From Verrucomicrobia bacterium LW23 (lineage in GTDB: Bacteria; Verrucomicrobiota; Verrucomicrobiia; Methylacidiphilales; UBA1321): a DNA stretch of 64,000 nt. The position numbers and the translations under genes are program-made. Below the pieces are notes generated by a model. It had not been told where the DNA came from. It ran no database searches and worked only from the letters and a program-made list of their open reading frames with translations. Shown piece by piece: positions 28,530 to 54,991 of the stretch. Within the stretch, counting starts at the first letter, position 1; each line of letters begins with the position of its first letter. Where the stretch lies: NCBI GenBank assembly GCA_003054695.1, contig QAZA01000010.1, positions 186,001 to 250,000 on the forward strand, written 5' to 3'.

Positions 28530-30185
28530 TTACTTCTGCGGCAAAATCTCCCTGGTGGGGTAGAGCCAGTTTTTGAGACGGTTGCGCAGGCGGCGAAAGA
28601 TTTTATCGGGCCTGCGGAGGGAGGTCCGCATGGTTATCTTCTCGGGAACGATCTCCACCGAGAGCAGATGGGCGGCGGCTTCAAAACAGTCCCACTCGCT
28701 AATCTCCGCGGCGCGATCGAAAGTGCAGGTCACGTCCACGCCATCCATATCTCTCTCGATGGGGATGAGAATGTTGTTCCGCTTGCCATGCCCGACATTA
28801 AAGTCGGCCACAATGCCTTCGCCATCCAGGACGATCTCCACCCTGTTGGAGAGGGCGCCCACCGGCTGGCCAAAGCGAATGTGAAGCTCGTCGCCCTTCA
28901 TGGCGCTGCCCAGGCGAAGGTGAACGGTCTGTTTGCACCAGCCATCGTCGCGAAGGCCATTTACGCCAAGGATCTCTCTGTAGCGAGGGAAGGACTCAAT
29001 ATCCACCTTTTGCGGGTAAACGCCATAAAAGTAGGCGAAGATCCGTTCCTTTTCCTTGCGCGCGATGGTCTCGTTGGTGGCCCACAGAGTCAGCTTTTGC
29101 TTCAGCCACTCCGGCGCGCTAAGCAAAAAGAGCTTGCGACGCGCGGCTTCGAACTGGCCCTCCTCCAGGTTTCGCAGCATGCGGAGGCTGAGAAGGGGGT
29201 CGCCGTCTCCATGGCGAAGCAGTGTCTTCAGCTTCGACTTCATCGACCTCAGCTGTGGGGAGTAGGACTCAAGGCGCCTTGCCCTTGAGAGAGCGCCTGG
29301 CCTGGCAAGGACGTGCAGGTGATCGACAAAGAGCCTGATATGAGCCTCCCCGGCGTAGTCACAGGCCCACCGGAAAACCCTGTCCAGCGCCACGGGAGTT
29401 TCCGAATAGAAGTCGTCCCTGCGGTGGTCCGCAGTTACCGAGAGGATGACGGGGGGATTGCAGCCGGACAAGACCGTAAAGTCCCGGCTTTCGCAAATGG
29501 AGTCCGCCAGCTGGCCGTCAATCGTATCCGCAAAGCCGGTGATGAGATGGCGGGAGTGGACGAAAATGGGGTGCTGATGAAAGCCCCGGTAGGAGAGGAC
29601 ATCTCCCTTTCTCTCAAAAAGATTGGACGGCCAGCGGGAGTGACAGGCGCCGTCTTCCAGAATCTGATCCTTTTGAATGGGGTGGAGATAGTCCAGGATA
29701 TACTCTACCGCTTTCTCTTTCGTAAACTGGTTCCTGCAATCGCGGGAGAGCTTCTCTGTACAGGTGTTGCTTAGACGCAGGCCCAGGCTGAAGCAGGATT
29801 TGCCTTTGGAAATAGCAGTATTGTACACCGCCTCAAAAAAGCCGTCATGATAGCATACATCGGCCGACGAAAAGATGACGCCTTTTACTTTAGATCGGTA
29901 CCTCTCGATACAATGCTTATGCGCATTGGTAAGCGCGCTAAATGGGTTACCCTTTTCAAACTCCGTAACGTGTACAATTACCTTGAAATCCTCGTTGAGA
30001 TTATCGGCTTCTACAATCTCATTAATGGCGGCCAGGCTGTCCTCTGCCGTATAGATGATGTAGAGCGGGCGCCCCTCGTTGCTTAACGCGGACAGGTTTT
30101 GCTTCGACCGTTCCGTCGGAAGACACATTGTCCTCCAGAGATCGATATAGAACTTTCCAAAAACAACGTTACAGATGGCTATCAT
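28530..30185 (-). CDS. Glycan-locus protein of unknown function with C-terminal DGWC domain
   Basis: A 551-residue protein. The first 300 residues have an alternating alpha/beta pattern (PLYIIYTAEDSLAAINEI, FKVIVHVTEFEK, KGVIFSSADVCYHDG) that would fit a glycosyltransferase-like fold; SSAD is a possible metal site but no family was recognised. Residues about 400-515 contain GVNGLRDDGWC (DGWC at 414-417) followed by beta strands with LRLGSAMKGDELHIRFG. The same signature occurs in the 698- and 579-residue proteins nearby. No signal peptide or membrane segment. A strong hairpin separates it from the methyltransferase gene upstream on the same strand. Confidence 0.6.
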   Translation of the reverse strand: MIAICNVVFGKFYIDLWRTMCLPTERSKQNLSALSNEGRPLYIIYTAEDSLAAINEIVEADNLNEDFKVIVHVTEFEKGNPFSALTNAHKHCIERYRSKVKGVIFSSADVCYHDGFFEAVYNTAISKGKSCFSLGLRLSNTCTEKLSRDCRNQFTKEKAVEYILDYLHPIQKDQILEDGACHSRWPSNLFERKGDVLSYRGFHQHPIFVHSRHLITGFADTIDGQLADSICESRDFTVLSGCNPPVILSVTADHRRDDFYSETPVALDRVFRWACDYAGEAHIRLFVDHLHVLARPGALSRARRLESYSPQLRSMKSKLKTLLRHGDGDPLLSLRMLRNLEEGQFEAARRKLFLLSAPEWLKQKLTLWATNETIARKEKERIFAYFYGVYPQKVDIESFPRYREILGVNGLRDDGWCKQTVHLRLGSAMKGDELHIRFGQPVGALSNRVEIVLDGEGIVADFNVGHGKRNNILIPIERDMDGVDVTCTFDRAAEISEWDCFEAAAHLLSVEIVPEKITMRTSLRRPDKIFRRLRNRLKNWLYPTREILPQK

Positions 30186-30287
30186 GCGATGGCTAGCTAG
30201 CCTCAGCTGCGACTTGATTGCAAGCTAAAACTCCCAGCCTGCAACAGCCTGTAATTGAGGAACGGGACGCAGGGCGGCCCCCCTACC

Positions 30288-30322
30288 GCATTTTGCACAG
30301 ACGGGACGTCTGAGCAAAATGC
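30288..30322 (-). terminator. Very strong intergenic hairpin
   Basis: GCATTTTGC-A-CAGACG, loop GGA, CGTCTG-A-GCAAAATGC: 15 base pairs with one A/A mismatch. It starts 17 bp after the methyltransferase stop (30340) on the minus strand. No T-run follows, so it may instead protect an mRNA end or be a repeat element. The remaining bases of the 154-bp gap show nothing else. Confidence 0.5.
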
Positions 30323-30339
30323 AATGGGATTGCACGAAC

Positions 30340-31023
30340 CTATTTGCGATGGCAGCACAGAGCGAAGAGATAGTGCGCCATGGGGTAGAAACCTGTATGC
30401 ACAACCTCGTCGTTCATGGAGAAGATAAAGACCTGATGGAAATAGAGTTGCATCAGCGCTTTCAGATCCTTGGCCGTCTTGCAATTCACGTGGCCGGCTT
30501 TGCTGGGCGGAGAGGCGTAGGTCTGGGACTCGAGCGACGGCGAGCCCACAATAAGGGTACCGGTGGGCTTCAATGACTTGGCGAGATTATCGACAAACAC
30601 TTTCTCGTCGCTGGGCATAATGTGTTCGATAACATCACAACAATAGGCTGCGTCAAAGCCGCCTTCCACGGGGCCTTCCAGCATATCATGCACTTTATAA
30701 TCAACAGGCCAGCGGGGGTCGTGACGCGTCTTGGCGTCTTCAATAAAGACGGGATCAAAATCTGTTACCGTAATGTGCTTAACCTCCTGCTTGACAATGC
30801 GCGTTCCAAAAGCATCGGCGCAGCCCACTTCAAGCACCCTGTCAGCGCCGCTGAGCATTTTAGATACGAACTTGTAGCGCGATAAGAGAAAGACGAGGCG
30901 CCTCGGATCGTCTTGCCAGACTTGCCCGCTCATCAGGCCAAACTGAGCAGGATACTCCTGCTTCTCCAACAAGAATTGATACTGAGGTTCCTTTGTTTGT
31001 GAGGTCATATCGTGTTGCTTCAT
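30340..31023 (-). CDS. Class I SAM-dependent methyltransferase
   Basis: A 227-residue cytoplasmic methyltransferase. SAM motif I is VLEVGCADAFGTR, with Asp at the end of strand 2 in VTDFDPVFIEDA, and the core motif FDAAYCCDVIEHIMPSDE. It resembles the UbiG/Methyltransf_11 group. An alternative start at the ATG at 31008 would remove five residues. It is the first minus-strand gene facing the TIGR04372-type glycosyltransferase gene on the plus strand, with a 283-bp divergent region between. Confidence 0.85.
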   Translation of the reverse strand: MKQHDMTSQTKEPQYQFLLEKQEYPAQFGLMSGQVWQDDPRRLVFLLSRYKFVSKMLSGADRVLEVGCADAFGTRIVKQEVKHITVTDFDPVFIEDAKTRHDPRWPVDYKVHDMLEGPVEGGFDAAYCCDVIEHIMPSDEKVFVDNLAKSLKPTGTLIVGSPSLESQTYASPPSKAGHVNCKTAKDLKALMQLYFHQVFIFSMNDEVVHTGFYPMAHYLFALCCHRK

Positions 31024-31306
31024 TCCACGCCTGCAGTGCTAAAGCATCAGACGGGCGTTGTGGTCGGCGGTAGATTCGCCCGCGCGGTTTCCGTATGGTA
31101 GCAGAGCCGTACGCTTTCCACATTCATTTACGTTTTCATGCATACATGAGTGGCGCCTGTGCTCCATACATTGGGAGGCGGGCATTTACATTGTATACTC
31201 CACTCCATTCCATTGATGGTGGACAATACCATGTAAGATTCACTCCACTTCTACAGCCCGTCTACAAGGGTGTCTAGGAAAAAACACTATTCATCCCCCT
31301 TGGAAA
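31024..31306. promoter_or_regulatory. Divergent spacer between methyltransferase and TIGR04372-type gene
   Basis: 283 bp without an ORF that looks real. The right half is AT-richer, with several CCACTCCATTCC/CACTCCACTT-like direct repeats at about 31198-31255 and a TATACT hexamer at about 31194, which could serve as a -10 box for the plus-strand gene. Assignment of a promoter is weak. Confidence 0.25.
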
Positions 31307-33403
31307 ATGAGATATTCCAAAACCTTTATGGCTGAACCTCCCGATCCGTTGACGGATAAACTCTCCCATCTCGAACGAACGGTCGAGTCCCTGAAAAAAT
31401 GGCAGCGGCGCTCCTGGTTCAAACGCACATTTTACCGGTGGACTCCGCCGGAAGCACCCGCCACGATGGAGGAGACTGCCGAAAGGTCCAAGACATCGGT
31501 AGCCACACCCGCCGCGGAGACCGCGCCTCCTGTCGCCTCCCATCCTGCGGAGCTTACTATAAAGATGGTGCCGTACAGCTCCGTTCCGGCAATTCCGGCG
31601 GACCTTGCATTCGCACAATCCGTATGCAGCGAGCAAATGATATTTCCTGTAGCCATAGAGCGCCATGCTCATGGCCTGTTCGAGAATCTGGTGGTGGGCT
31701 GTAACGGGCTTAAGGATGATGGCTGGTGCAACCCAATGACTCATCTTCGCATAGGCCCTACATATGATGGTGATTCCATAGTTACCAAGTGGCGACGCAC
31801 CGCGACAGGCAAGCCTGTTGATCTGACCATCTCCGTTTCCGGCCATCAGCCTGTACATGCGCAGTTGCCGGATAATCACTTTACATTGCGTCTTGCTGTT
31901 GCCGCGGATCATCCAGTAACGGATGTTGTCTTCCACTTCGCAGAGTCCGGCTCCGTAACCGTAGATGATATACGAGCCTGGAACAGCTCCGCGTGCCTGG
32001 AATTCCTGCGTATTGAGCGCAGCGCTGCTTCTGTACATGTAGCAAAGGCTCCGACTTTTGCGGACTTCCAGACGCGCATGCGCGAAGCGGCTCCGTTTTC
32101 GGACGAAGCAAACCAACTGCTCACGTCCGTGGCGCTGAGCTGGGTGGCGCAGGGGCGGTTTGAGGAGGCCCGCTGGCTGTATGATTACATGTGGAGCTCA
32201 GATGCCGGCAATCGGTCCAACCCGGCCCGCATTATTGCCTATTTTCAACAACTTGCCGATATCGCCTACAAACAGATGCTGAGGGGCCTGGCCAGGGAGT
32301 CGCAGGAGACATTCCGCCAGCGCAAGGAGATCCGCATGCGGCTGGCCGAGGAGAATGCCGTGCCGGATTCGGTCGTGTACCTGGGCCCGTCGTGGACGCA
32401 GGCGTACGGGGACATCGCGAATCTCAGCTGGGCCATTCAGGACAACATCATGTCCCCCACCCCCAAAAAGCTGGTGCTGCTGCCGTGGACCGAGAAATCT
32501 CCTAACCAGCACCTGCTCAACTACTTCGCGCCGTGGATCGAGACGGACACCAGCCCGGAAACCCGCAACAGCCTGCCCGGCATTCTTCGCTGCCGGGATG
32601 CCTGGGAAGTCTCGCCCGCGGATATCCTGGAAATCACGCACCGGTGGAGCAAGTCCGGCCGCTCTGCGCTCCTCACTCTTAGCGATGAAGACAAACAGTA
32701 CGGCGCCGAGCTTATCAAGCAATTAGGATGTAATCCCGACGACTGGTTTGTATGCCTGCATGTACGTAATGCAGAAGCTACGGATGGCGATCTCAGCACC
32801 CGTAATGCTGTACTGGATACGTACCGTGATGTTGTCAAGATAGTAACCCAGGCCGGCGGCCGTGTCATCCGCATTGGGCCAAAGCTTGAACCACCATCAG
32901 ATATTCCGAATCTCATCGACTACGCCTCCGGCCCGTTGAGAACGAAGCAGGGCGACCTGTTTATTAATGTAGCCTGCAGATTCCTTATCGGCGGCATCTC
33001 CGGCCCCGGCAGTGTGGCGGAAGCCTTTGGCACGCCGCTGGTCCTGACAAATTGCTACCCGCTGAATGCGTGTGCGTTCAGCGGCCATTTCGTCTGCAAA
33101 CTGCTATGGCATGAGGAAGAAAACCGTTTCCTTACATTCCGAGAAATGCTGAACGAACCGTATTGCGGCATCCTGAGCCAGGCCGTGCTCCGCGAGCGAA
33201 AGCTGCGCCTCATTAACAATACGCCGGAGGATATGTGTTTACTGCTAAAGGAAGCACTCCTCTTTCACCAAGGCAGCATCGTATATACAGAGGAAGACGA
33301 AGCACTGCAGGCCCGGTTCGTCGCTATTATGAAGACGGCCCAGCCGCACTTTATAGGAAGGTTGAGCCGCGACTTTGTGTACAAATACCGTAACCTTCTC
33401 TGA
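31307..33403 (+). CDS. DGWC domain plus TIGR04372-type glycosyltransferase
   Basis: A 698-residue protein. Residues 13-45 are a charged helix, then a Pro/Ala/Thr-rich linker. Residues about 125-240 form the DGWC domain (GCNGLKDDGWC at 131-141 followed by THLRIGP and beta strands). Residues about 260-345 are helical and TPR-like. The C-terminal half (about 350-690) matches the TIGR04372 putative glycosyltransferase pattern: WFVCLHVRNAEATDGDLSTRN, RVIRIGPK and a late FLIGGISGPGSVAEAFGTP donor-binding loop. It is the only plus-strand gene in this part of the locus and is followed by a convergent gene after 24 bp. Confidence 0.75.
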   Translation: MRYSKTFMAEPPDPLTDKLSHLERTVESLKKWQRRSWFKRTFYRWTPPEAPATMEETAERSKTSVATPAAETAPPVASHPAELTIKMVPYSSVPAIPADLAFAQSVCSEQMIFPVAIERHAHGLFENLVVGCNGLKDDGWCNPMTHLRIGPTYDGDSIVTKWRRTATGKPVDLTISVSGHQPVHAQLPDNHFTLRLAVAADHPVTDVVFHFAESGSVTVDDIRAWNSSACLEFLRIERSAASVHVAKAPTFADFQTRMREAAPFSDEANQLLTSVALSWVAQGRFEEARWLYDYMWSSDAGNRSNPARIIAYFQQLADIAYKQMLRGLARESQETFRQRKEIRMRLAEENAVPDSVVYLGPSWTQAYGDIANLSWAIQDNIMSPTPKKLVLLPWTEKSPNQHLLNYFAPWIETDTSPETRNSLPGILRCRDAWEVSPADILEITHRWSKSGRSALLTLSDEDKQYGAELIKQLGCNPDDWFVCLHVRNAEATDGDLSTRNAVLDTYRDVVKIVTQAGGRVIRIGPKLEPPSDIPNLIDYASGPLRTKQGDLFINVACRFLIGGISGPGSVAEAFGTPLVLTNCYPLNACAFSGHFVCKLLWHEEENRFLTFREMLNEPYCGILSQAVLRERKLRLINNTPEDMCLLLKEALLFHQGSIVYTEEDEALQARFVAIMKTAQPHFIGRLSRDFVYKYRNLL

Positions 33404-33427
33404 TTCGCGCCTGCCTGCCCGCACACG

Positions 33428-35167
33428 CTACACAATCCGTATGCCCCGCAGATGCGCAGAGCACACGTGAGGGTCCTCAGCGCTGAGGGCTCTCGCCTCC
33501 GGAAAGCGCAGGGTAACCCGCGTATGCGTGTGGTCGTGCTCCATCTCCACCTTGTGCGTCGATCCCGCGGGCTCCAGCGTAATCTCGACAGCCTTTTCCC
33601 CCTCCACAGCAATGGTTGCCTGCATGGGCTGCCACGTGGCCGGGCTGCCAAACTCCAGCGTTAGTGTTGACCCACGGGAGGAGGCCCCCAGGGTAAACTT
33701 GGTTTCCTCGCCGCACCAGCCGTCGCGGCGCATGCCGGAGCAGCCAGGCATCGAGCGCGGAAAAAGGCCGTTCACGGGCTCCAGCACCGTGGCGTAAAGC
33801 AGCTGCACCAGGCGCGCCTCCAGAATCTTCTTCTGCGCGGCCAAAGCTGACGCCATCGCGTCGTCCCCGGCCTTGATCAGATCCAGGTCCGAAAGATCCT
33901 TCAGCAGGCGGAAGGTCGGGAGGTGCGAGACGACGTGCGGAAACGTGTCGTCCAGCATTCGCAAATCGCGTCGCACGGCTTCCAATTCCCCCGCATCCCA
34001 CTTGAGCGCAAGGGGAAGCAACTGGGCGCTGACGATGCTGTAAAGCTCGCGCGTTTCCTGCTCCGGCGAGATAAAGAAGCGATGCGTGGTCACCTCCCCC
34101 GGCAGCGCGCTGGTTGCGCCAACTTCCGTCAAGCGCTCCTCCAGCACCTTAAGCAGGCTGTCCGACTTCTCCCGACCATAGCGCACGCGTTGCCCGGGCA
34201 GCGCAAAAGGCAGCTGGGGATCGCCGTAGCGAATGCCCTGGTGATCGGCACCCTGCTCTGTGTTGCTGATGATTGTGTAATCCGTAGCGCTAAAGTAGGC
34301 AATTTGCGCGTACCCGGCCAGCGAGCCCAGGAAGAGATTGCACGCGTTGATGAAGGCGATCTCGTGCCCGATGCCCATGCCCAGCGCGCGCAGGCTTACC
34401 ACATTGGGCAGCCGAAGCAACGCCAGCGGCTTCTCCTGAAGGCGCCCCAGTACTACAAAGCGCACGTGCGGAAAAGCCCGGGCCGTCCGCTCCATAAAGT
34501 GGAACCACTGCGTGAAATCCTCGTCGCGGTCGAAATCCTGGCCCGATTCGGACGGCTTCAGCCCGGAATCCAGCCGCTTGAGCCGCGAGTGCACGGCCAC
34601 CCAAAAGGTCTTCTCCGGGTAGCTCCCCTTCAGGGCTTCGATATCCGTGGCGCACTCCGGAACAATGCGCAGCCGGGGGCGGTTGCCCGTCTCGCGAAAC
34701 CAGTCGTTAATCTCCGCGTGCATGGAGCACTTGCTGCGGTGGAAAGCGACAACGGCCTGGGGATTCTTGCGCTTCTCGTAAATCTCCAGGTGCTCCGCGT
34801 AAGTGGCCCTGGCGGCCGGATCGGTGGCGGCCAGCTTTGTCCAGAAGTCGTCAAACGCCTGCCGCGAGGAGTGGAGCGTGAGGCTGGAGAACAGAGGGTG
34901 CGAGGTGAATGCGGACACCAGCTCCATCATAAAGAGGTCGGTAGCATGGGCCAGCGGCATCAGGATGGTGCAGCCGGACGCTTTCACGTCGCACACCAGA
35001 TGCACATGCACGCCCTTGCGGCCGGCCGCCTGGCAGCGCAGGGCCGATTTCACGCACCACGTCATCGCATCTCCCAGGCCAAAAGGCAGGATGGAAAAGT
35101 CGTGAATGTCGTGAAAGATCTCGGGCTCCGGGGCCGGCTTTGAGGTAAACAGACTCTTCAGGTTCAT
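33428..35167 (-). CDS. GT-B-like glycosyltransferase with C-terminal DGWC domain
   Basis: A 579-residue protein. The first 360 residues resemble GT-B (heptosyltransferase-like) enzymes: FSILPFGLGDAMTWCVKSALR at the N-terminus, TFWVAVHSRLKRLD in the middle, RFVVLGRLQEKP, and AFINACNLFLGSLAGYAQIAY in the donor-site region. Residues about 370-465 are helical. The end (about 470-579) contains CSGMRRDGWCGEE with DGWC at 482-485, followed by beta strands. It lies 40 bp downstream of the SDR/methyltransferase fusion gene on the same strand and probably ends that operon. The family of the enzymatic half was assigned by pattern only. Confidence 0.65.
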   Translation of the reverse strand: MNLKSLFTSKPAPEPEIFHDIHDFSILPFGLGDAMTWCVKSALRCQAAGRKGVHVHLVCDVKASGCTILMPLAHATDLFMMELVSAFTSHPLFSSLTLHSSRQAFDDFWTKLAATDPAARATYAEHLEIYEKRKNPQAVVAFHRSKCSMHAEINDWFRETGNRPRLRIVPECATDIEALKGSYPEKTFWVAVHSRLKRLDSGLKPSESGQDFDRDEDFTQWFHFMERTARAFPHVRFVVLGRLQEKPLALLRLPNVVSLRALGMGIGHEIAFINACNLFLGSLAGYAQIAYFSATDYTIISNTEQGADHQGIRYGDPQLPFALPGQRVRYGREKSDSLLKVLEERLTEVGATSALPGEVTTHRFFISPEQETRELYSIVSAQLLPLALKWDAGELEAVRRDLRMLDDTFPHVVSHLPTFRLLKDLSDLDLIKAGDDAMASALAAQKKILEARLVQLLYATVLEPVNGLFPRSMPGCSGMRRDGWCGEETKFTLGASSRGSTLTLEFGSPATWQPMQATIAVEGEKAVEITLEPAGSTHKVEMEHDHTHTRVTLRFPEARALSAEDPHVCSAHLRGIRIV

Positions 35168-37238: not shown

Positions 37239-38195
37239 TCACGTGACGTTGAGGCTTGCGGCGAGGGCTTGCTGGATGCGGGGGCCGAGGGCCTCGGGGG
37301 TGAGACCGAAGTGGGCGTTGGCTTCTTCGGTGTCGCAGGTTTTGTGCAGGAATTCGTCCGCCGTGCCGAAGCGCAGCAGGCGGGCGGGGAGCTCGGGGCG
37401 GTCCGCTTTCCACTCGGCGATGCTGCCGCCGAGGCCGCCAAGGACGCTGTGTTCCTCCAGCGTGGCGACGACGCGCGCGGTGCTGAACGCGCGGTGCAAC
37501 GTGTTTTCGTCCAACGGCTTAACGGTGTGGAAGCTGTGGACGGACGCGTGGATATCGCGCGCCTTCAGCCAGTCCGCCAGTGCGAGCGCGGTGGGCAGCA
37601 TCACGCCGGTGCTCAGCAGCGCCACTTCGTCGCTCTCCCCCTGGCCATGGCCGCCGCGCATGGGGATGGCTTTGCCCAGCGTAAACGCGGGGACGCTCGG
37701 ATGCACTACGGGTTCGCCCTTTTTGCCAATGCGGATGTAGGTGGGGTTCGGATCCTGCAGGCTGGCGCGAAGCGCGGCGCGCACTTCCTGGGAGTCCGCC
37801 GGCGCGACGACGTTGAGGTGCGGAAGCAGGCGCAGCATCCCCATCTCCTCGCACGAATGGTGCGTGGCGCCCAGCGAGGCGTACGCCAGGCCGGAGCCGG
37901 TGCCGACGAGAATCACCGGCACGTGATGATAACACATGTCCACGCGAATCTGCTCCACGCAGCGATACGTGAGGAAGGGCGCGATGGTGTAGCACACCGG
38001 CCGAAACCCCGCCATGGCGAGGCCGGCGGCCAGGCCGATCATGTTGGCCTCCGCAATGCCGCAGTTGTAAAAGCGGTTGGGGCACGCCTCTTTAAAGCGA
38101 TCGAACAGCCGGTTGCCGATGTCGCCGGCAAGCAGCACAATGCGCTCGTCCGTCTGGGCCAGGGCCGTGATTTCCTCTGCAAAAGCGTTTCTCAT
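37239..38195 (-). CDS. Transketolase C-terminal subunit, copy 1
   Basis: A 318-residue protein equal to the pyrimidine-binding and C-terminal domains of transketolase. The catalytic Glu for thiamine diphosphate activation is in YNCGIAEANMIGLAAG. The domain order continues with YTIAPFLTYRCVEQIR and a C-terminal transketolase_C domain (AVRs of ALLSTGVMLPTALALADWL type). Full transketolases are single chains of about 650 residues; here the enzyme is split into two adjacent genes, the N-terminal one 50 bp upstream. It differs from the second copy (41653-42609) at only four residues (Met/Leu, Ala/Gly, Arg/Ser, Ile/Leu). Confidence 0.92.
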   Translation of the reverse strand: MRNAFAEEITALAQTDERIVLLAGDIGNRLFDRFKEACPNRFYNCGIAEANMIGLAAGLAMAGFRPVCYTIAPFLTYRCVEQIRVDMCYHHVPVILVGTGSGLAYASLGATHHSCEEMGMLRLLPHLNVVAPADSQEVRAALRASLQDPNPTYIRIGKKGEPVVHPSVPAFTLGKAIPMRGGHGQGESDEVALLSTGVMLPTALALADWLKARDIHASVHSFHTVKPLDENTLHRAFSTARVVATLEEHSVLGGLGGSIAEWKADRPELPARLLRFGTADEFLHKTCDTEEANAHFGLTPEALGPRIQQALAASLNVT

Positions 38196-38245
38196 GGAAA
38201 AAAGTAGGGAAGTGAGTAAGCGTTTAATGCTAAAGGACTTAGAGC

Positions 38246-39115
38246 TTAGTGCGCCTTCTTCGGGCCGGAACCCGCAGGAATGACCGGCGCCGGAAGCCCC
38301 AGCTCCAGAAACGCCGCCGTTACCTCCGACGCCTTGGGGATGCGATAGTGCCAGTTATTGTCGTCCTCCATAAAGGAGACGCCCTTGCCCTTCACCGTAT
38401 GCGCGATAATCGCCAGCGGCTTGCCCGAGGGGTGCGGCACTGTGGCAAGCGCGCCTGTCAGCGCTGCAAGATCATGCCCATCAACCTCTTGCGCATGCCA
38501 GCCAAAGGCGCGCCACTTCTCCACCAGCGGGGAGAGCGACGTGACTTCCTCGCTGCGGCCCGTGGCCTGCCACTTGTTGTAATCCACTATAACCACAAGG
38601 TTATCCAGCTTAAGCGCGGGGGCCAGCAACGCGCCCTCCCACACCGTGCCTTCGTTGCACTCGCCGTCGCTCAGCACCGTAAACACGCGGTAGCTTTGCC
38701 CGCGAATCTTCGCCGCAAGCGCCAGACCCAGCGAAATCGGCAACCCGTGGCCCAGCGATCCCGTCGCCAGCTCCACCCCGGGCGCGCAGTGCGGGCTCGG
38801 CTGCTCCGCCAGAGCGGCGCCATGCGTGGCGAACGTGTCGATCAGCTCCCGACCAAAAAAACCGTGCTCCGCAAGCACCGCATACAGCGCCATCGCCGCG
38901 TGCCCCTTGCTCAGGATCGCACGATCGCGCAGCGGATCCTCCGGAGCCTTCGGATCGATCCTCAGCGCCGCCCCATACAGCGCCACCAAAATATCCACCA
39001 CCGACAGCGACGACCCCAGATGCGGCGTCCCTGCACGGTGCGACATCATTATCACTTCCCCACGCATCCGCGCGGAGACTGCCGCAAGCTCACTGATCGT
39101 TTCGGTGCACTCCAT
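38246..39115 (-). CDS. Transketolase N-terminal subunit, copy 1
   Basis: A 289-residue thiamine-diphosphate-binding subunit. The TPP motif reads LSDGECNEGTVWEG, ending about 30 residues later in VDYNKWQ; SKGHAAMALYAVLAEHGFF and TGSLGHGLPISLGLALAAK are typical of transketolase N-domains. With the downstream C-subunit it would form a split transketolase that moves two-carbon ketol units between sugar phosphates or nucleotide sugars. It differs from copy 2 at two residues (Met17/Leu, Ser/Ala in IRGQxYRVF). The upstream flank is not a natural neighbour but the tail of a dehydrogenase gene carried along by the duplication. Confidence 0.92.
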   Translation of the reverse strand: MECTETISELAAVSARMRGEVIMMSHRAGTPHLGSSLSVVDILVALYGAALRIDPKAPEDPLRDRAILSKGHAAMALYAVLAEHGFFGRELIDTFATHGAALAEQPSPHCAPGVELATGSLGHGLPISLGLALAAKIRGQSYRVFTVLSDGECNEGTVWEGALLAPALKLDNLVVIVDYNKWQATGRSEEVTSLSPLVEKWRAFGWHAQEVDGHDLAALTGALATVPHPSGKPLAIIAHTVKGKGVSFMEDDNNWHYRIPKASEVTAAFLELGLPAPVIPAGSGPKKAH

Positions 39116-41035: not shown

Positions 41036-41656
41036 TCAGGCGCTTACCAGGGCCGGGATCTCCGCCCACGAGTGAACGATGGTGTAATGCTCCGAGGGCC
41101 GGACGTTTTTCTGCGGATCGAAGAGGATTCGCCGAATGCCGGACGGAAACGCCGGATCGAGCAAGAACTCGGGGAGGTCATCGATAAACACCTGGCAGCC
41201 AAGGGCTTCCGCTCGCTGAGCCTTCTCGGTTTTGGTGGGGGCAAACCACACATTGCCGCGCGGCAGGCCGATGGCGCTGGAGTGGACACCCTGCGTCTCC
41301 AACCAGCGGCGGGCGGACTCGTGGAGGTCGACGGGCTCCCCCTTGATGGGGTAGCGCGTTTTGTGGCTGACGATGTGGAGGGTCCAGCCGCTTGCGATGC
41401 CTTGGCGGATGAAGTCGAGCGCGCCCGGGTAGGCTTCGGCCTCCACGATGCGGTTGCCGTACACCACGCCCTGCATCTCGGTCCACGCGGGTTCCCGGCC
41501 GATTTGGCGCAGGTAGTTGCGCACGGCGGTTTTGTTTACCGGCACGTCGTCGGGGATGAGCTTTTGCTCAGCGGCGACGCGATGGAACAGCGTATCGTAG
41601 CAAACGAGGGTGTTGTCGAAATCGATGCCGACGACGATGGGTGGTTGGGTGCTCAC
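41036..41656 (-). CDS. HAD-superfamily hydrolase
   Basis: A 206-residue phosphatase-like protein. Motif I is GIDFDNTL with Asp12 and Asp14; IVSHKTRYP supplies the motif II Ser, a Lys in PTKTEKAQR fits motif III, and motif IV is FIDDLPEFLLD. The start is GTG at 41656 and overlaps the stop of the second transketolase C gene by 4 bp (GTGA), which indicates coupling; longer versions of this frame run antisense-like through the transketolase gene and are not real. Copy 1 of the repeat keeps the GTG but not this gene, which shows that copy 2 is in its original setting. Substrate unknown; a sugar phosphate is likely. Confidence 0.85.
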   Translation of the reverse strand: MSTQPPIVVGIDFDNTLVCYDTLFHRVAAEQKLIPDDVPVNKTAVRNYLRQIGREPAWTEMQGVVYGNRIVEAEAYPGALDFIRQGIASGWTLHIVSHKTRYPIKGEPVDLHESARRWLETQGVHSSAIGLPRGNVWFAPTKTEKAQRAEALGCQVFIDDLPEFLLDPAFPSGIRRILFDPQKNVRPSEHYTIVHSWAEIPALVSA

Positions 41657-42609
41657 GTGACGTTGAGGCTTGCGGCGAGGGCTTGCTGGATGCGGGGGCC
41701 GAGGGCCTCGGGGGTGAGACCGAAGTGGGCGTTGGCTTCTTCGGTGTCGCAGGTTTTGTGCAGGAATTCGTCCGCCGTGCCGAAGCGCAGCAGGCGGGCG
41801 GGGAGCTCGGGGCGGTCCGCTTTCCACTCCGCAAGGCTGCCGCCGAGGCCGCCAAGGACGCTGTGTTCCTCCAGCGTGGCGACGACGCTCGCGGTGCTGA
41901 ACGCGCGGTGCAACGTGTTTTCGTCCAACGGCTTAACGGTGTGGAAGCTGTGGACGGACGCGTGGATATCGCGCGCCTTAAGCCAGTCCGCCAGTGCGAG
42001 CGCGGTGGGCAGCATCACGCCGGTGCTCAGCAGCGCCACTTCGTCGCTCTCCCCCTGGCCATGGCCGCCGCGCATGGGGATGGCTTTGCCCAGCGTAAAC
42101 GCGGGGACGCTCGGATGCACTACGGGTTCGCCCTTTTTGCCAATGCGGATGTAGGTGGGGTTCGGGTCCTGCAGGCTGGCCCGCAGCGCGCCGCGCACTT
42201 CCTGGGAGTCCGCCGGCGCGACGACGTTGAGGTGCGGAAGCAGGCGCAGCATCCCCATCTCCTCGCACGAGTGGTGCGTGGCGCCCAGCGAGGCGTACGC
42301 CAGGCCGGAGCCCGTGCCGACGAGGATGACCGGCACGTGGTGGTAGCACAGGTCCACGCGGATTTGCTCCACGCACCGGTACGTGAGAAACGGCGCGATG
42401 GTGTAACACACGGGCCGAAACCCCGCCATGGCGAGGCCGGCGGCCAGGCCGATCATGTTGGCCTCGGCAATGCCGCAGTTGTAAAACCGGTTGGGGCACG
42501 CCTCTTTAAAGCGATCGAACAGCCGGTTGCCGATGTCGCCGGCAAGCAGCACAATGCGCTCGTCCGTCTGCGCCAGGGCCGTGATTTCCTCTGCAAAAGC
42601 GTTTCTCAT
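41653..42609 (-). CDS. Transketolase C-terminal subunit, copy 2
   Basis: A 318-residue protein with the same features as copy 1, including the catalytic Glu in CGIAEANM. Only four residues differ between the copies, while many third positions differ, so both have been kept under protein-level selection or gene conversion. The 3' end overlaps the HAD gene by 4 bp. The N-subunit gene is 50 bp upstream. Confidence 0.92.
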   Translation of the reverse strand: MRNAFAEEITALAQTDERIVLLAGDIGNRLFDRFKEACPNRFYNCGIAEANMIGLAAGLAMAGFRPVCYTIAPFLTYRCVEQIRVDLCYHHVPVILVGTGSGLAYASLGATHHSCEEMGMLRLLPHLNVVAPADSQEVRGALRASLQDPNPTYIRIGKKGEPVVHPSVPAFTLGKAIPMRGGHGQGESDEVALLSTGVMLPTALALADWLKARDIHASVHSFHTVKPLDENTLHRAFSTASVVATLEEHSVLGGLGGSLAEWKADRPELPARLLRFGTADEFLHKTCDTEEANAHFGLTPEALGPRIQQALAASLNVT

Positions 42610-42659
42610 GGAAAAAAGTAGGGAAGTGAGTAAGCGTTTAATGCTAAAGGACTTAGCGC

Positions 42660-43529
42660 TTAGTGCGCCTTCTTCGGGCCGGAACCCGCAGGAATGACCG
42701 GCGCCGGAAGCCCCAGCTCCAGAAACGCCGCCGTTACCTCCGACGCCTTGGGGATGCGGTAATGCCAGTTGTTATCGTCCTCCATAAAGGAGACGCCCTT
42801 GCCCTTCACCGTGTGCGCGATAATCGCCAGCGGCTTGCCCGAGGGGTGCGGCACCGTGGCCAGCGCGCCCGTAAGCGCTGCAAGATCATGGCCATCAACC
42901 TCTTGCGCATGCCAGCCAAACGCGCGCCATTTCTCCACCAGCGGAGAGAGGGAGGTGACTTCCTCGCTGCGGCCCGTGGCCTGCCACTTGTTGTAATCCA
43001 CTATAACCACAAGGTTATCCAGCTTAAGCGCGGGGGCCAGAAGCGCGCCCTCCCACACTGTACCCTCGTTGCACTCGCCGTCGCTCAGCACCGTAAACAC
43101 GCGGTAGGCCTGCCCGCGAATCTTCGCCGCAAGCGCCAGACCCAGCGAAATGGGCAACCCGTGGCCCAGCGATCCCGTCGCCAGCTCCACGCCAGGCGCG
43201 CAGTGCGGACTCGGCTGCTCCGCCAGCGCCGCGCCGTGCGTCGCGAACGTGTCGATCAGCTCGCGACCGAAAAACCCGTGCTCCGCAAGCACCGCATACA
43301 GCGCCATCGCCGCGTGCCCCTTGCTCAGGATCGCACGATCGCGCAGCGGATCCTCCGGAGCCTTCGGATCGATCCTCAGCGCCGCCCCATACAGCGCCAC
43401 CAGTATATCCACCACCGACAGCGACGACCCCAGATGCGGCGTCCCTGCACGGTGCGACATCATTATCACTTCCCCACGCAGCCGCGCGGAGACTGCCGCA
43501 AGCTCACTGATCGTTTCGGTGCACTCCAT
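42660..43529 (-). CDS. Transketolase N-terminal subunit, copy 2
   Basis: A 289-residue TPP-binding subunit with motif LSDGECNEG. The start lies 21 bp downstream of the dehydrogenase stop, so the two are probably cotranscribed. This dehydrogenase-transketolase order is what the scar next to copy 1 preserves. The protein differs from copy 1 at two positions. Confidence 0.92.
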   Translation of the reverse strand: MECTETISELAAVSARLRGEVIMMSHRAGTPHLGSSLSVVDILVALYGAALRIDPKAPEDPLRDRAILSKGHAAMALYAVLAEHGFFGRELIDTFATHGAALAEQPSPHCAPGVELATGSLGHGLPISLGLALAAKIRGQAYRVFTVLSDGECNEGTVWEGALLAPALKLDNLVVIVDYNKWQATGRSEEVTSLSPLVEKWRAFGWHAQEVDGHDLAALTGALATVPHPSGKPLAIIAHTVKGKGVSFMEDDNNWHYRIPKASEVTAAFLELGLPAPVIPAGSGPKKAH

Positions 43530-45567: not shown

Positions 45568-47112
45568 TTAGAAATTCAACAGACTCATTCCCGCCTTCAG
45601 CAATACTGCTTTTGAGATAGGCCGGGTATTGCCAACAATCTTGACTGCCTGCGCGCCGCCCAGCTGGCCAAGGAAGGTCACCAGCTCGTTGTGGTATCCT
45701 TTGGCGGCGCCAAGCGCGGCGATGGAGAAGAAGGCGTCGCCGGCACCCACGGTATCCGTAATGGAGGCTTCGAACGGCATCAGCTTGCTCGGCTTCTCGC
45801 CGTCCTTCAGGCCGATTGTCTCGACACCGCCTCGCGTCAGCCACGCATAGCTGCTGGAGAAGTTCTCCTTCAGCTTTTCCAGCGCATCCAGAATATTGAC
45901 GTGGCGCTGGCCGACGGCGAGCAGCATCTCAGTCTCATCCAGGCTAAAGCAATCCATGCGCTTGTATTGCCGGTTGATGATGTTAAAGCCGTGGTTGTTG
46001 CTGTTGGACTGGCAGTTTACCGCGAGGAACCTGGCGTGCTCCTGCACAAATTCGCGAACCTCCGGCTGCATGAGGCCGTGGCCGAAATCCATTACCATCA
46101 CAACATCGGCCTTCTCGATCTCGGCGCGAAGTGTCTCCATCACCCGGGCAATAAGCTCGGCGCGCGGGGGCTTGTCGTCGATGTAGTTGACGGAGAAGTA
46201 CTTGATCAACTCCTTGCCCTCCGCCTGCGGGGCCACAAAGCGGTGCTTGAGCACGGAGGTAAACGTCTCGTCACGCAACACCAACGAATCCTCGGGGGCC
46301 ACGTGAAGGTCGAGCTCCTCCTGCGCCCATGGCTCCGTGCCGAGGATGCTGACCAGCTTGACGTGGGGCGTGAACTCGCGCACATGCCGATACACCGCAA
46401 GCGTACCGCCAGGCTGCAGATCCTCGTACAGGTGCCGCGCGGATACGATGCTTGCTTTGGATGTAAGGCCCTGGACCTTTACATAGCTGTATTTATCAAA
46501 GATGATATCGCCAATAAGCAATACGCGTAGATCCTTCAGATCATCCACCGCCTGGCGGAATGTATCCGGCGGATACGTTACAGCAAGACTCTGGCAATAG
46601 CCCTTGATCGCTTCCGGCATGTGATCGAAGTGCTTGTTCAGCAGCTTCGTGGAGCTGAATACCACCGAACCGATATAGGAAACCCTGCCGCCAAACTTCT
46701 CAACCGTTGCAATATCATCCGCAATGTTACCCGTAACGTCATTGCTCTGATCTTCGTACTCCCGGCCTTTACAATAAATATCAGGCTGTACGCACTCAAT
46801 CGCCTCCACCGCGGCGCGGAACGGGATAACAACAACGTAATCCACACAGGCCAGCGCGGCGAGCGATTTAGCGCGAAGCTTATCGCTAAAGTAGGGGCGC
46901 CCCGGCCCTTTGTTGACGTACTTCTCCCCGGTAATCGTCACCACCAACACATCACCCAGAGCGCGCGCCTCCTCCAGGTGAAAGATGTGCCCGGGATGGA
47001 CCAGATCGAAGGTACCGTGGCACTGGACGACTCGAAGCCCTTCGCCGCGCAATTGCCGGAAGATTGCGCTTGCCTCTTCGAAGGGTAACAGTTTGGAAGC
47101 GATAGACGTCAT
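45568..47112 (-). CDS. Bifunctional nucleotidyltransferase / PfkB-type sugar kinase (HldE-like, domains in reverse order)
   Basis: A 514-residue fusion. Residues about 25-170 are a cytidylyltransferase-like domain with HGTFDLVHPGHIFHLEEA (HPGH at 39-42). Residues about 200-514 are a ribokinase/PfkB-type kinase with a late GAGDAF motif at about 456-461 (SITDTVGAGDAFFSIA). HldE of Escherichia coli has the kinase first and the adenylyltransferase second; here the order is opposite. The likely job is to phosphorylate a sugar phosphate at C1 and attach a nucleotide. The ATG at 47112 was chosen because the upstream 39 codons look untranslated; no strong ribosome site is visible. Confidence 0.85.
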   Translation of the reverse strand: MTSIASKLLPFEEASAIFRQLRGEGLRVVQCHGTFDLVHPGHIFHLEEARALGDVLVVTITGEKYVNKGPGRPYFSDKLRAKSLAALACVDYVVVIPFRAAVEAIECVQPDIYCKGREYEDQSNDVTGNIADDIATVEKFGGRVSYIGSVVFSSTKLLNKHFDHMPEAIKGYCQSLAVTYPPDTFRQAVDDLKDLRVLLIGDIIFDKYSYVKVQGLTSKASIVSARHLYEDLQPGGTLAVYRHVREFTPHVKLVSILGTEPWAQEELDLHVAPEDSLVLRDETFTSVLKHRFVAPQAEGKELIKYFSVNYIDDKPPRAELIARVMETLRAEIEKADVVMVMDFGHGLMQPEVREFVQEHARFLAVNCQSNSNNHGFNIINRQYKRMDCFSLDETEMLLAVGQRHVNILDALEKLKENFSSSYAWLTRGGVETIGLKDGEKPSKLMPFEASITDTVGAGDAFFSIAALGAAKGYHNELVTFLGQLGGAQAVKIVGNTRPISKAVLLKAGMSLLNF

Positions 47113-47486
47113 ATCGTTAGAGTCTGCATTCGTAGTCCGGTCGTAAGCCGCGAAGTAACAGGTTGATAAAGTGAGGCGTGGAAGCTTTAAGGGAAGGCCG
47201 GATAATAAGGAAAGGTACAAATGGATCAATCATAAAGATCCAGATGCCCCCGAATAGCCTTAACGGCTAAATTGATCCCCGCCTTTTGCTCCGGCCCGCC
47301 TGCGGCCCGCTGTCAAACAAGGCTGGTACCCGATAACATCCCAAGTTTCGGATCTGGTGCGTTCAAAAAGGCTCAACGCCAGGGCGCGACGAAGAAGAAT
47401 ATTGGATTAATATTCGACTGAGGAGCAACGCGGGCGCTGGGTCTTTTTCAGCGCGTCAGATGCGAAAATTAGGCTGTCATAGGGTG
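47113..47486. other. 374-bp gap with two small hairpins
   Basis: No gene. TAGCC-TTAAC-GGCTA lies at 47255-47269 and GAATATT-GGATT-AATATTC at 47397-47415. The gap separates the dehydratase gene (upstream on the minus strand) from the nucleotidyltransferase/kinase, so a promoter for the latter is expected here, but no clear -35/-10 pair was found. Confidence 0.4.
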
Positions 47487-51596: not shown

Positions 51597-53846
51597 TCAC
51601 ATCGGCCCACCCGGCGGCGGCAAAATGTCCGGTTTGCCTCGCAAAAATTGGGTGTAATTCTGGCAGCCAAGCCTCTTCAGTTCCCAATAGTCCTTAAACC
51701 GGCCAAACACATTGCTTAGCGGGCCGTAGCTGGATTCTATTGTTATATCCAGATCTTCATCGAACAGTATTCCCATCAAAGCCACATTTGTTCGAATCAG
51801 GCGAGGCGCTACTTTCGGCTGATTGTTTACCTTGACACGAATGCAGTTTGTATACTGAAGCGGAATGACCAACAAACTCTTCCCCGGCGCCGTCGCCTTT
51901 ACTTTGACGCCCTTTTTGGACCAATACAGCGTCGGATTCTCTGCTCGTGTCAGGTTCGCCGGAACAGGCTCGTAAACGACCGTATTGTTGAACGGGTCGT
52001 ACGCCGGGTCTGTCATGACCCTAAAGGTCTCCTCAAGCGAAGTGCACAAGGTTACGGAGCCAGGGGAAAACCCCGAAATGTATGGATTCTTCAGGTCGTA
52101 TGCATAAACGCCGGAAGGGCTCTCTGAAATCAGTTGTAACGATTCGCTGTTCAGCGGTTTGTTGGATACGACTACCCTGACGCCCAGCATTTTTAGTATC
52201 TTGACATTGAGCTGCGTCAGTACAGGCAGTGATTTCACCTGGACGTCGTTTTGCAGGGAAAGGAATCGAGTGACAAGCAAATAGTAGTCAGGCGATATGG
52301 TGGAGGTATACGTAAACAGCGTTGGAATATTATACCACCAGGGGATAATGTGATGATACTCGTTTCCAGTCGTTTTCCATATTGTATAATCCCAGCTGGA
52401 TTGTTGAGGCCATGAGGTATCCGTTCCTCCTAACGGAGTATCAACCAGAGTTGCCATACATCCCTTCCAGTGATGACCGGATTGCAGGCCAATCCTGTCC
52501 ATCAGCGCCTTGGTTAAGGGGGTTGGAGGAGGCGGAAATGCATAGGGACCGCTATTGAGCGGATTGCTTTTGTGCAACGAAAAGCTGAATGTACACAGGC
52601 AGAGGCCAATGAACGCGCCAACAGCAAATGACTGAACCCAGTTCAACGAGAACGCTTTAGCCCGCTCCTCAATTATTTTTCTGCTTGAATGTGCGAATGC
52701 CGTTACCTTAAGTGGGATGAAGCGCCTGATATATTGCCCCATCCAGAGCAGCAACTTACCGAACAGGAAGGTGGTGAAAATAAACATGAGCGGCCACAAG
52801 TACCACTCCAAATAGATAAACGAAGGTGTGCGATACTGGGTGAGTACAAAGGCGAAGATACATCCAGCTATCGTAAGCGTTCCAGAGTAGATAAGATAGA
52901 AGATAGCGGTCTTCTTCAATGCCACGCTCTCGTTGAATAGAGAGAGTATCGCACCACTAAACCCAGCGATATAGATGATGGTGCCAGCCCAACTTATATT
53001 GGTTGGGCCATGGAACAGTACAGATATATGCGCCCATTCTTCGCGATCGGAGCGAAAATCCAGAGGAAAAAGGCTCGGTATGGAGTATGCAAGAAATCCA
53101 GCGACAAAGATTAGCGGAAGAACTAAAGGTACGAACAGCAGGAGGCAGAGGCGTATGGTTTCGTGGATCTCCTTGACGCCAAGGGACTGCCATACCAGCC
53201 AGTATAGTGCGAATGAGGCTACCAAAGGAAAGAATAGTGCCGTGGTCAGCGGAAGGTGAGCCATCTCATATGCAGTTAGAAAGGAAATGGCAAGCGTGCG
53301 GGCGATTTTATAGCGACAGTTTGCCTGAAGCCTGATGATTAACCCCAGTATGACGCAAATGATGCTGATGTTCTCCGCAATATCGGGAACAATAGCCGTT
53401 ATCATGTAGAAGGAGAAGAAACCTCCATTCTGGGGCGGCTGGAAGAACGGCATTAAAAAGATAACCGCAATCCACGAAGCCGTCGATGCAACTGCCCTGG
53501 AGATATCCATACATCTTGCCAGGTAGAATGTGCATAAGAATAATTCTACGGATATGCAAGTGTAGAACAGAACAGGTGAGATAATCACACCGCTGATGCG
53601 GTAGGAGATATAGTTGAGCAGCGCGGCGGGCGACAGCCAGAAGTTAGACGGAAATGCCAGAGATCCCAGCGCCTGAAGGGGATTAAGTGGCGAGATCAGG
53701 GAGGGGTTTGTCCACTCGATATAAAACTTGATTAATTGCTCACGATAAATCCCGTCAATAGGCACAAAGAGGCCACCCGAATTTGCGGTAAAGAAGAAGC
53801 AACAAGCGAGGATAAGCAGACAGATATGGCAGAAAAGCTGTTTCAT
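51597..53846 (-). CDS. Large polytopic membrane protein, possible GT-C-type glycosyltransferase
   Basis: A 749-residue protein with about eleven to thirteen hydrophobic segments in the first 440 residues and a soluble C-terminal domain of about 300 residues. The first outside loop contains DGIYREQLIKFY, and EWAHISVLFHG lies between later helices. This outline (membrane half plus large soluble end) is that of GT-C-like or YfhO-like proteins in glycan loci; no catalytic Asp could be assigned. TTG at 53861 opens the frame, but ATG at 53846 gives a typical signal-anchor start. It follows wecE with an 11-bp gap, so both probably belong to one transcript. Confidence 0.65.
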   Translation of the reverse strand: MKQLFCHICLLILACCFFFTANSGGLFVPIDGIYREQLIKFYIEWTNPSLISPLNPLQALGSLAFPSNFWLSPAALLNYISYRISGVIISPVLFYTCISVELFLCTFYLARCMDISRAVASTASWIAVIFLMPFFQPPQNGGFFSFYMITAIVPDIAENISIICVILGLIIRLQANCRYKIARTLAISFLTAYEMAHLPLTTALFFPLVASFALYWLVWQSLGVKEIHETIRLCLLLFVPLVLPLIFVAGFLAYSIPSLFPLDFRSDREEWAHISVLFHGPTNISWAGTIIYIAGFSGAILSLFNESVALKKTAIFYLIYSGTLTIAGCIFAFVLTQYRTPSFIYLEWYLWPLMFIFTTFLFGKLLLWMGQYIRRFIPLKVTAFAHSSRKIIEERAKAFSLNWVQSFAVGAFIGLCLCTFSFSLHKSNPLNSGPYAFPPPPTPLTKALMDRIGLQSGHHWKGCMATLVDTPLGGTDTSWPQQSSWDYTIWKTTGNEYHHIIPWWYNIPTLFTYTSTISPDYYLLVTRFLSLQNDVQVKSLPVLTQLNVKILKMLGVRVVVSNKPLNSESLQLISESPSGVYAYDLKNPYISGFSPGSVTLCTSLEETFRVMTDPAYDPFNNTVVYEPVPANLTRAENPTLYWSKKGVKVKATAPGKSLLVIPLQYTNCIRVKVNNQPKVAPRLIRTNVALMGILFDEDLDITIESSYGPLSNVFGRFKDYWELKRLGCQNYTQFLRGKPDILPPPGGPM

Positions 53847-53857
53847 ATTACATGGCT

Positions 53858-54991
53858 TCAACAGAACTTCTCGATCAAACTGACTACTCTGTTCTGCTGC
53901 TCTTCGCTAATTCCACACCATAGGGGAAGGCGGATAATTTGCTCGGAAAGTGAATCCGTAACGGGCAAGGCGCCGCAGGTTTTGCCATAGCGCCGGCCGG
54001 CAGGTGACGAGTGCAGGGGCACATAGTGAAAGTAGGCATGGATAGCCTGGGCCTGAAACTCCTTTAACACGTGTTCTCTGCGAATGGAGGGATCAAGCAG
54101 GACATAGTACATATGCGCATTGTGTGTACATTCACAAGGAATTATCGGGCGGCGAAGCGATCCCTTTTCTTCCAGCTTTTGGAGCATGGCGTGATACTTA
54201 TTCCATACCTGCATACGCAGGGAAGTTATGGTATCTGCATCCTCCAGTTGGGCCAGCAGCATAGCAGCAATTATTTCGCCTGGCAGGTACGAGGAGCCTA
54301 CCTCCTGCCATGTGTATTTATCAACCTCTCCACGGTAAAAGCGGCTACGGTCTGTGCCTTTTTCGCGAATAATCTCGGCCCGGTGTATATATTCGGGGTC
54401 ATTGACAAGCAGGGCACCGCCTTCGCCGGATATGAGGTTCTTGGATTCGTGGAAGCTTAATGTACCGAGCTCACCCATGGAGCCTAATGCTTTTCCTTTA
54501 TACGAAGCTAATGCACCTTGCGCGGCATCCTCCACCACCTTAATGTTATGCTCTTTTGCTAGTGCCAGTATGGAATCCATTTCGCAACCGACGCCCGCGT
54601 AATGTACAGGCACAATGGCTTTTGTCCGGGGCGTTATTGCATCTTCTATCAGCACTTCGTTGAGATTGAGTGTATCGGGCCTTATGTCTATAAATACGGG
54701 CACGCCGCCGCGCAGGACAAAGGCGTTAGCGGTGGAGACAAACGTGTACGAAGGCATGATGACTTCGTCGCCCGGCTGTATATCCAGCAGGAGGGCCGCC
54801 ATCTCCAGCGCCGCAGTGCAGGAGTGGGTGAGCAGGGCCTTGCGCGTGGCGGTTCGTTGTTCCAGCAGGGCGTTGCATTGTTTGGTAAAAGGGCCGTCGC
54901 CTGCCAGGATTCTTGTTTCCCCGCATTTGCTAATGTATGCAAGTTCCTTGCCGGCAAGAAAGGGAACATTGAAAGGAAGTTTGGAACTCAT
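53858..54991 (-). CDS. wecE: dTDP-4-amino-4,6-dideoxygalactose transaminase
   Basis: A 377-residue PLP-dependent sugar aminotransferase. It is close to Escherichia coli WecE (RffA) over its whole length: CTAALEMAALLLDIQPGDEV, MPSYTFVSTANAFVLRG, VPVHYAGVGCEMD, EDAAQGALASYKGKALG, the PLP Lys184 in SFHESKN and EIIREKGTDRSRFYRGEVDK. It moves an amino group to a 4-keto-6-deoxy sugar on dTDP. It is the first gene of the minus-strand part of the locus that starts at 54991; a set of inverted repeats upstream may hold its promoter. The dehydratase that makes its substrate may be the one at 47487-48491. Confidence 0.95.
   Translation of the reverse strand: MSSKLPFNVPFLAGKELAYISKCGETRILAGDGPFTKQCNALLEQRTATRKALLTHSCTAALEMAALLLDIQPGDEVIMPSYTFVSTANAFVLRGGVPVFIDIRPDTLNLNEVLIEDAITPRTKAIVPVHYAGVGCEMDSILALAKEHNIKVVEDAAQGALASYKGKALGSMGELGTLSFHESKNLISGEGGALLVNDPEYIHRAEIIREKGTDRSRFYRGEVDKYTWQEVGSSYLPGEIIAAMLLAQLEDADTITSLRMQVWNKYHAMLQKLEEKGSLRRPIIPCECTHNAHMYYVLLDPSIRREHVLKEFQAQAIHAYFHYVPLHSSPAGRRYGKTCGALPVTDSLSEQIIRLPLWCGISEEQQNRVVSLIEKFC

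Follow-up and report, generated by a model that had tools for sequence, protein, structure and literature searches.

The signature G-x-[NS]-G-[LM]-[KR]-x-D-G-W-C recurs in three predicted proteins of Verrucomicrobia bacterium LW23, which raises the question whether these proteins share a domain, how widely such a domain is distributed, and what it may contribute to its hosts. The three proteins, here referred to as P1, P2, and P3, are encoded in the 64,000-nucleotide stretch of contig QAZA01000010.1 that was analysed as a whole (the window; all positions refer to it). Their surroundings are a surface-glycan locus with neighbouring genes for GT2, methyltransferases, WbqC, a DegT aminotransferase, and NDP-sugar enzymes. 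The features concerned are the following:

28530–30185, minus strand: P1, open reading frame (ORF) of 551 amino acids with a C-terminal DGWC domain and then a basic tail of 40 residues
28653–28973, minus strand: DGWC domain of P1, residues 405–511 (leave-out profile E = 1.7e-8; AlphaFold2 model)
30340–31023, minus strand: methyltransferase between P1 and P2 that lacks the DGW domain (Methyltransf_11, E = 9.3e-12)
31307–33403, plus strand: P2, ORF of 698 amino acids with an N-terminal DGWC domain, a helical linker, and a C-terminal TIGR04372 glycosyltransferase domain
31694–32011, plus strand: DGWC domain of P2, residues 130–235 (leave-out profile E = 7.9e-10; in a four-member tree branch)
33428–35167, minus strand: P3, ORF of 579 amino acids with a GT-B-like part, a helical linker, and a DGWC domain that forms the C-terminal end of the protein
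33437–33745, minus strand: DGWC domain of P3, residues 475–577 (leave-out profile E = 1.1e-15; AlphaFold2 model)

The domain shared by P1, P2, and P3

In a six-frame translation of the window the exact signature was found three times, once in each of the three proteins, against an expectation of approximately 2e-6. When the P1 domain was used as query against the whole 6.6-Mb genome, it retrieved P3 over query residues 5–115 (E = 2e-9) and P2 (E = 2e-6) but no other place, and a profile of the three copies added no credible fourth copy; an own-genome match with an E-value of 0.65 was rejected as chance. A leave-out profile was composed exclusively of domains of named loci in other genomes and contained no sequence from the window, with the domain limits in these loci being taken from an iterated profile that had included the window copies. 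Searched against the 239 ORFs of the window, it recovered P1, P2, and P3 with the E-values listed above and no other ORF up to an E-value of 10, and 9,560 shuffled ORFs gave zero matches at an E-value of 1. Sequence comparison thus confirmed that the three proteins, encoded on different strands (P2 on the plus strand, P1 and P3 on the minus strand), carry one homologous domain of about 105 residues, which shows a pairwise identity of 23–31% among the copies. The earlier note had reported the signature in proteins of exactly these lengths and had placed the domain at residues of about 400–515, 125–240, and 470–579, close to the limits obtained here; homology extends well beyond the motif, which lies near the N-terminal edge of the domain in all three proteins. 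The downstream pattern LR-G-x5-G-x3-L that it had also described applies only loosely, P3 having FTLG instead of LR-G.

Among the three proteins, P2 is the sole one that can be firmly assigned as a glycosyltransferase from its sequence: residues 479–675 match the NCBIfam family TIGR04372 (E = 3.6e-45; 154 bits versus a cut-off of 45), as had been proposed for the 698-residue protein. Neither P1 nor P3 reached the TIGR04372 cut-off, and both were without a match. In a profile comparison (hhalign), the N-terminal part of P3 aligned to the transferase domain of P2 with an E-value of 5e-5 and a probability of 67%, which suggests that the GT-B-like part of P3 is distantly related to TIGR04372. An orthologue of P3 with 40% identity is present in a genome of the same family (G005), and a weaker relative occurs in the same-order genome G018, where it is clustered with five TIGR04372 glycosyltransferase genes (contig 1, 1159109–1177566; loci L127/L134). 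A weak P3 match in another genome (G166) was rejected as an unrelated protein matched on the helical part of P3. P1 belongs to no Pfam or NCBIfam family in scans of both collections, apart from a spurious NdhO match, and for its residues 1–397 no convincing homologue was found among 188 genomes of the class; its N-terminal part may be read as a GT-A-like fold. A plasmid search yielded no relative of P1 or P3 and one TIGR04372 match for P2, and a search of viral contigs yielded no relative of P2 or P1. The description of the hosts as three different enzymes thus holds for P2, with P1 and P3 being putative enzymes; that the domain sits on three different protein scaffolds is borne out. The tail that follows the P1 domain (window 28530–28652, minus strand) is arginine-rich and has the sequence FRRLRNRLKNWLYP, which possibly contacts the membrane. 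A similar basic tail was observed on a DGW protein of genome G188 (L022).

Several other genes of the window were noted. A split transketolase pair, with the C-terminal and N-terminal halves encoded by separate genes, is present in two copies on the minus strand (37239–39115 and 41653–43529), separated by 2.5 kb that contain a methyltransferase, an APH-like kinase, and an HAD-like gene. The product of 45568–47229 (minus strand) combines a cytidylyltransferase-like domain with a weak PfkB-kinase match and resembles HldE-type heptose enzymes with swapped domain order; together with the nearby HAD, kinase, and transketolase genes it suggests the synthesis of a higher-carbon or branched sugar nucleotide. 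Finally, 51597–53861 (minus strand) encodes a polytopic membrane protein of 754 residues that is GT-C-like in appearance but has neither a Pfam match nor a DGW domain.

The wider DGW family and its host proteins

The earlier note had regarded DGWC as the defining signature of a new domain. It turned out to mark merely the local branch of a much wider, uncatalogued sequence family, here called DGW. A contig scan with the pattern [NSE]G[LMF][RK][DR]DGWC returned 20 stretches, none of which was confirmed as a relative; DGWC was consequently abandoned as family signature, whereas a broader DGW profile succeeded. DGWC also occurs outside the local branch, in a Singulisphaera copy (L110). In an alignment of 58 diverse family members the D and W of DGW are invariant and the G is present in 57, and D100 and R102 are found in 56 and 54 members, respectively. 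The D-x-R motif precedes the last strand, and its D is present in all three window copies, with the R position being occupied by R in P2, H in P3, and F in P1.

The family extends over the Verrucomicrobiota, Acidobacteria, Pseudomonadota, Planctomycetota, and Cyanobacteria. A scan of named genomes with the C-terminal region of DGW membrane proteins as query detected 80 loci, most of them in Opitutaceae and others in Bradyrhizobium, Yersinia alsatica, Polynucleobacter, Acidobacteria, Planctomycetota, and Cyanobacteria. The iterated profile listed 245 domain matches, including repeats of the same places, and 167 were retained, namely those located in a named locus or in the window; a match in genome G072 was discarded because of internal stops. 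No DGW match was found in four genomes of the same order that contain TIGR04372 above cut-off (G018, G021, G026, and G028), and no relative was detected in plasmids with the Bradyrhizobium DGW region or in E. coli DNA with the Yersinia copy. Scans of Pfam, NCBIfam, and PDB sequences assigned the domain to no family, in agreement with the initial statement that no named family carries this signature. No Pfam family of carbohydrate-binding modules (CBMs) exceeded its cut-off, with 13 domains giving only single-member matches at E-values of 0.05 or worse. Pfam matches of the Big_7 type and to NdhO, as well as PDB sequence matches to alphaRep and designed proteins, were judged to be chance. In the literature, no publication on TIGR04372 or a "DGW motif" was found.

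GT-C-like membrane proteins carry one to four DGW domains C-terminally, and GT2, GT4, GT4-GT2, and TIGR04372 glycosyltransferases carry a single one. Tandem C-terminal copies were found on large membrane proteins of five genomes (G074, G179, G216, G534, and G197), and single copies on GT2 enzymes (G258 and G232; loci L033 and L036), on a weakly matched GT4 enzyme (G250; locus L035), and on a further protein of G188. The membrane hosts are called GT-C-like on the basis of a crude hydropathy count and their location in glycan loci, without a family match; those tested from Yersinia alsatica, Bradyrhizobium, Polynucleobacter, and Opitutaceae had no Pfam match. Two acidobacterial loci carry the domain on more than one enzyme, namely on a GT-C-like protein, a GT4-GT2 fusion, and a GT2 enzyme in L114, and on a GT-C-like protein and a GT2 enzyme in L101. 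At 78 of the 80 loci it is present on one protein only within the stretch examined. The membrane protein encoded at 1–2177 of L114 contains two more beta-rich repeats after the DGW domain, with a different motif (GRNWYEVESYGKARFRW, GRGWYPVEHYGGSTFRW), and these repeats may represent a sister family of DGW.

In a tree of 62 domains, the copies of P1, P2, P3, and G005 formed one branch with a support of 100/99. The inner order of the tree is not fixed, because the alignment comprises only 109 columns and several end branches are long. The simplest reading of the tree is that in this lineage one domain has spread onto at least three different scaffolds of one locus. A cysteine directly follows DGW in all four members of the branch, and in three of them another cysteine lies 9 or 10 residues earlier; in the diverse family set, a cysteine occurs at the position after DGW in four of 58 members, one of them from outside the window.

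Predicted fold and known counterparts

AlphaFold2 models were calculated for the P3 and P1 copies from the alignment of 58 rows (P3: pLDDT 93.3, pTM 0.85; P1: pLDDT 90.9, pTM 0.84). The models have an identical strand order and mostly common structural neighbours, and both copies are confidently predicted to be jelly-roll beta-sandwiches. According to Foldseek and VIA-align, the neighbours of both models are mostly sugar-binding modules (CBM35, CBM4, CBM22, and CBM domains of glycoside hydrolases), with 95–115 of about 115 residues aligned at Z-scores of 8–9.4 (8–9 for P3), slightly above the 7–8 that models without clear matches reach. Since receptor-domain chains of binary-toxin B components score as high as the CBMs, the nearest neighbours are not solely sugar binders, and a shared jelly-roll fold is by itself no proof of function. 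The proposed mobile beta-sandwich module thus agrees with two confident models and with the differing positions of the domain on three scaffolds. Its novelty lies in the DGW sequence family, which is new relative to Pfam and NCBIfam, whereas the CBM-like jelly-roll fold and the occurrence of CBMs on glycosyltransferases are already known.

Much is known about CBMs on polysaccharide-degrading enzymes, and a few polysaccharide-building enzymes are also known to carry them. CBM35, CBM4, and CBM22 are jelly-roll sugar-binding modules of hydrolases of plant polysaccharides. The DGW models share their fold (Z-scores of 8–9 over 95–109 residues), but the domain differs from them by an identity of only 5–18%, the lack of a Pfam CBM match, and hosts that are biosynthetic rather than secreted hydrolases. 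The best structural match of the P1 model is the carbohydrate-binding-like domain of BcsB, which belongs to a polysaccharide synthase, the bacterial cellulose synthase (5eiy_B; Z-score 9.4, rmsd 4.2, 115 residues aligned). In contrast to the DGW domain, BcsB is a separate periplasmic subunit; the identity is 11%, and it was not among the matches listed for the P3 model.

Parallels also exist in the hosts. In EmbC, a C-terminal CBM is attached to a GT-C enzyme that builds a polysaccharide (PMC3044687), and in the GT136 enzyme ORF12 a CBM binds the acceptor, the unmodified O-polysaccharide, but was not needed for activity in the tested conditions (PMC11127046). EmbC, AftD, and ORF12 thus resemble the DGW proteins in having a beta-sandwich module on a polysaccharide-building enzyme, and their GT-C hosts resemble the DGW membrane proteins. 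Unlike their modules, the DGW domain also occurs in tandem, its hosts include soluble GT-B, GT2, and GT4 enzymes, and several enzymes encoded at a single locus may carry it. While acceptor binding has been demonstrated for GT-C-linked CBMs, the DGW domain is known from sequences and models. The carbohydrate-binding domain of Wzt from O-antigen ABC transporters is a cytoplasmic jelly-roll that recognises the nascent surface polysaccharide but, unlike the DGW domain, is attached to an ATPase and dimerises by strand swapping (PMC9445017). The Pfam, NCBIfam, and PDB-sequence scans gave no match between DGW and the EmbC, AftD, or GT136 modules, and the Wzt, Emb, AftD, and GT136 modules were not among the fold matches listed but may be related to DGW. 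The TIGR04372 family model of NCBIfam does not include the DGW domain, even though P2 belongs to this family.

Candidate functions of the DGW module

The DGW domain is probably an accessory, CBM-like module by which several glycosyltransferases of one pathway hold the growing glycan or the acceptor, a reading to which we assign a probability of about 0.6. Appended to surface-glycan glycosyltransferases, the module would bind the nascent or lipid-linked glycan and keep it close to the catalytic domain, so that the local acceptor concentration would be raised or successive enzymes would be kept on the same chain. This reading is favoured because the predicted fold is CBM-like and has been fused repeatedly to glycan-building enzymes, and because several enzymes per locus carry the domain (L114 and L101) and EmbC and GT136 provide precedents. 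Of the options offered by the earlier note, binding of a common glycan best fits a CBM-like fold in a glycosyltransferase context; from these models and contexts we infer carbohydrate binding, the identity of the ligand, and the effect on catalysis.

That more than one enzyme of a locus carries the domain, in the window as well as in L114 and L101, would also fit protein–protein docking or dimerisation, in which DGW domains associate with one another or with a common scaffold and assemble the pathway enzymes into one complex. The two to four tandem copies in membrane proteins are compatible with this, and the single branch of the three local copies is expected if all must fit the same partner. 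However, no dedicated partner or scaffold protein was seen, at 78 of the 80 loci a single protein within the examined stretch carries the domain, and the identity among the local copies is low for self-association. Moreover, the hosts are both soluble and membrane-bound and possibly act on both faces of the membrane, to which a common glycan fits more easily than a cytoplasmic partner. Docking is thus unlikely, and no evidence supported the tethering of the three enzymes in one complex that the earlier note had considered.

Slightly less probable is a structural appendage that stabilises the catalytic domain or positions it at the membrane and has no ligand of its own. The two loops with DGW and D-x-R, in which the conserved residues lie, could form a structural clasp, and the basic tail after the P1 domain could touch the membrane. 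It also speaks against binding that the most conserved residues, D17, G18, W19, D100, and R102, may be structural, with R102 not being kept in P1 and P3. Yet a fixed packing is difficult to reconcile with a domain that lies in the N-terminal part of P2, in the C-terminal part of P1 and P3, and as tandem copies in GT-C-like proteins, and whose catalytic partners have unrelated folds. The cysteines shared within the DGWC branch would speak for metal binding, or for an intrinsic activity of the domain (e.g., as esterase). Both are very improbable, since in the diverse set just one member outside the window has the cysteine after DGW, no other catalytic-looking invariant set exists, and most fold matches are to binding modules.

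Acceptor binding by a CBM-like module could be taken one step further. The DGW domain might be a dedicated acceptor-recognition module, swappable between lineages, that labels the enzymes belonging to a given glycan pathway. Each assembly line would then recognise only its own chain, and DGWC would be the code of the pathway studied here, placed on several unrelated enzyme folds, but this extension is doubtful. A widespread module on soluble and membrane-bound glycosyltransferases of one locus would offer a handle on how such enzymes act in order on one chain, and the DGW family would permit the annotation of many proteins that now lack any domain.
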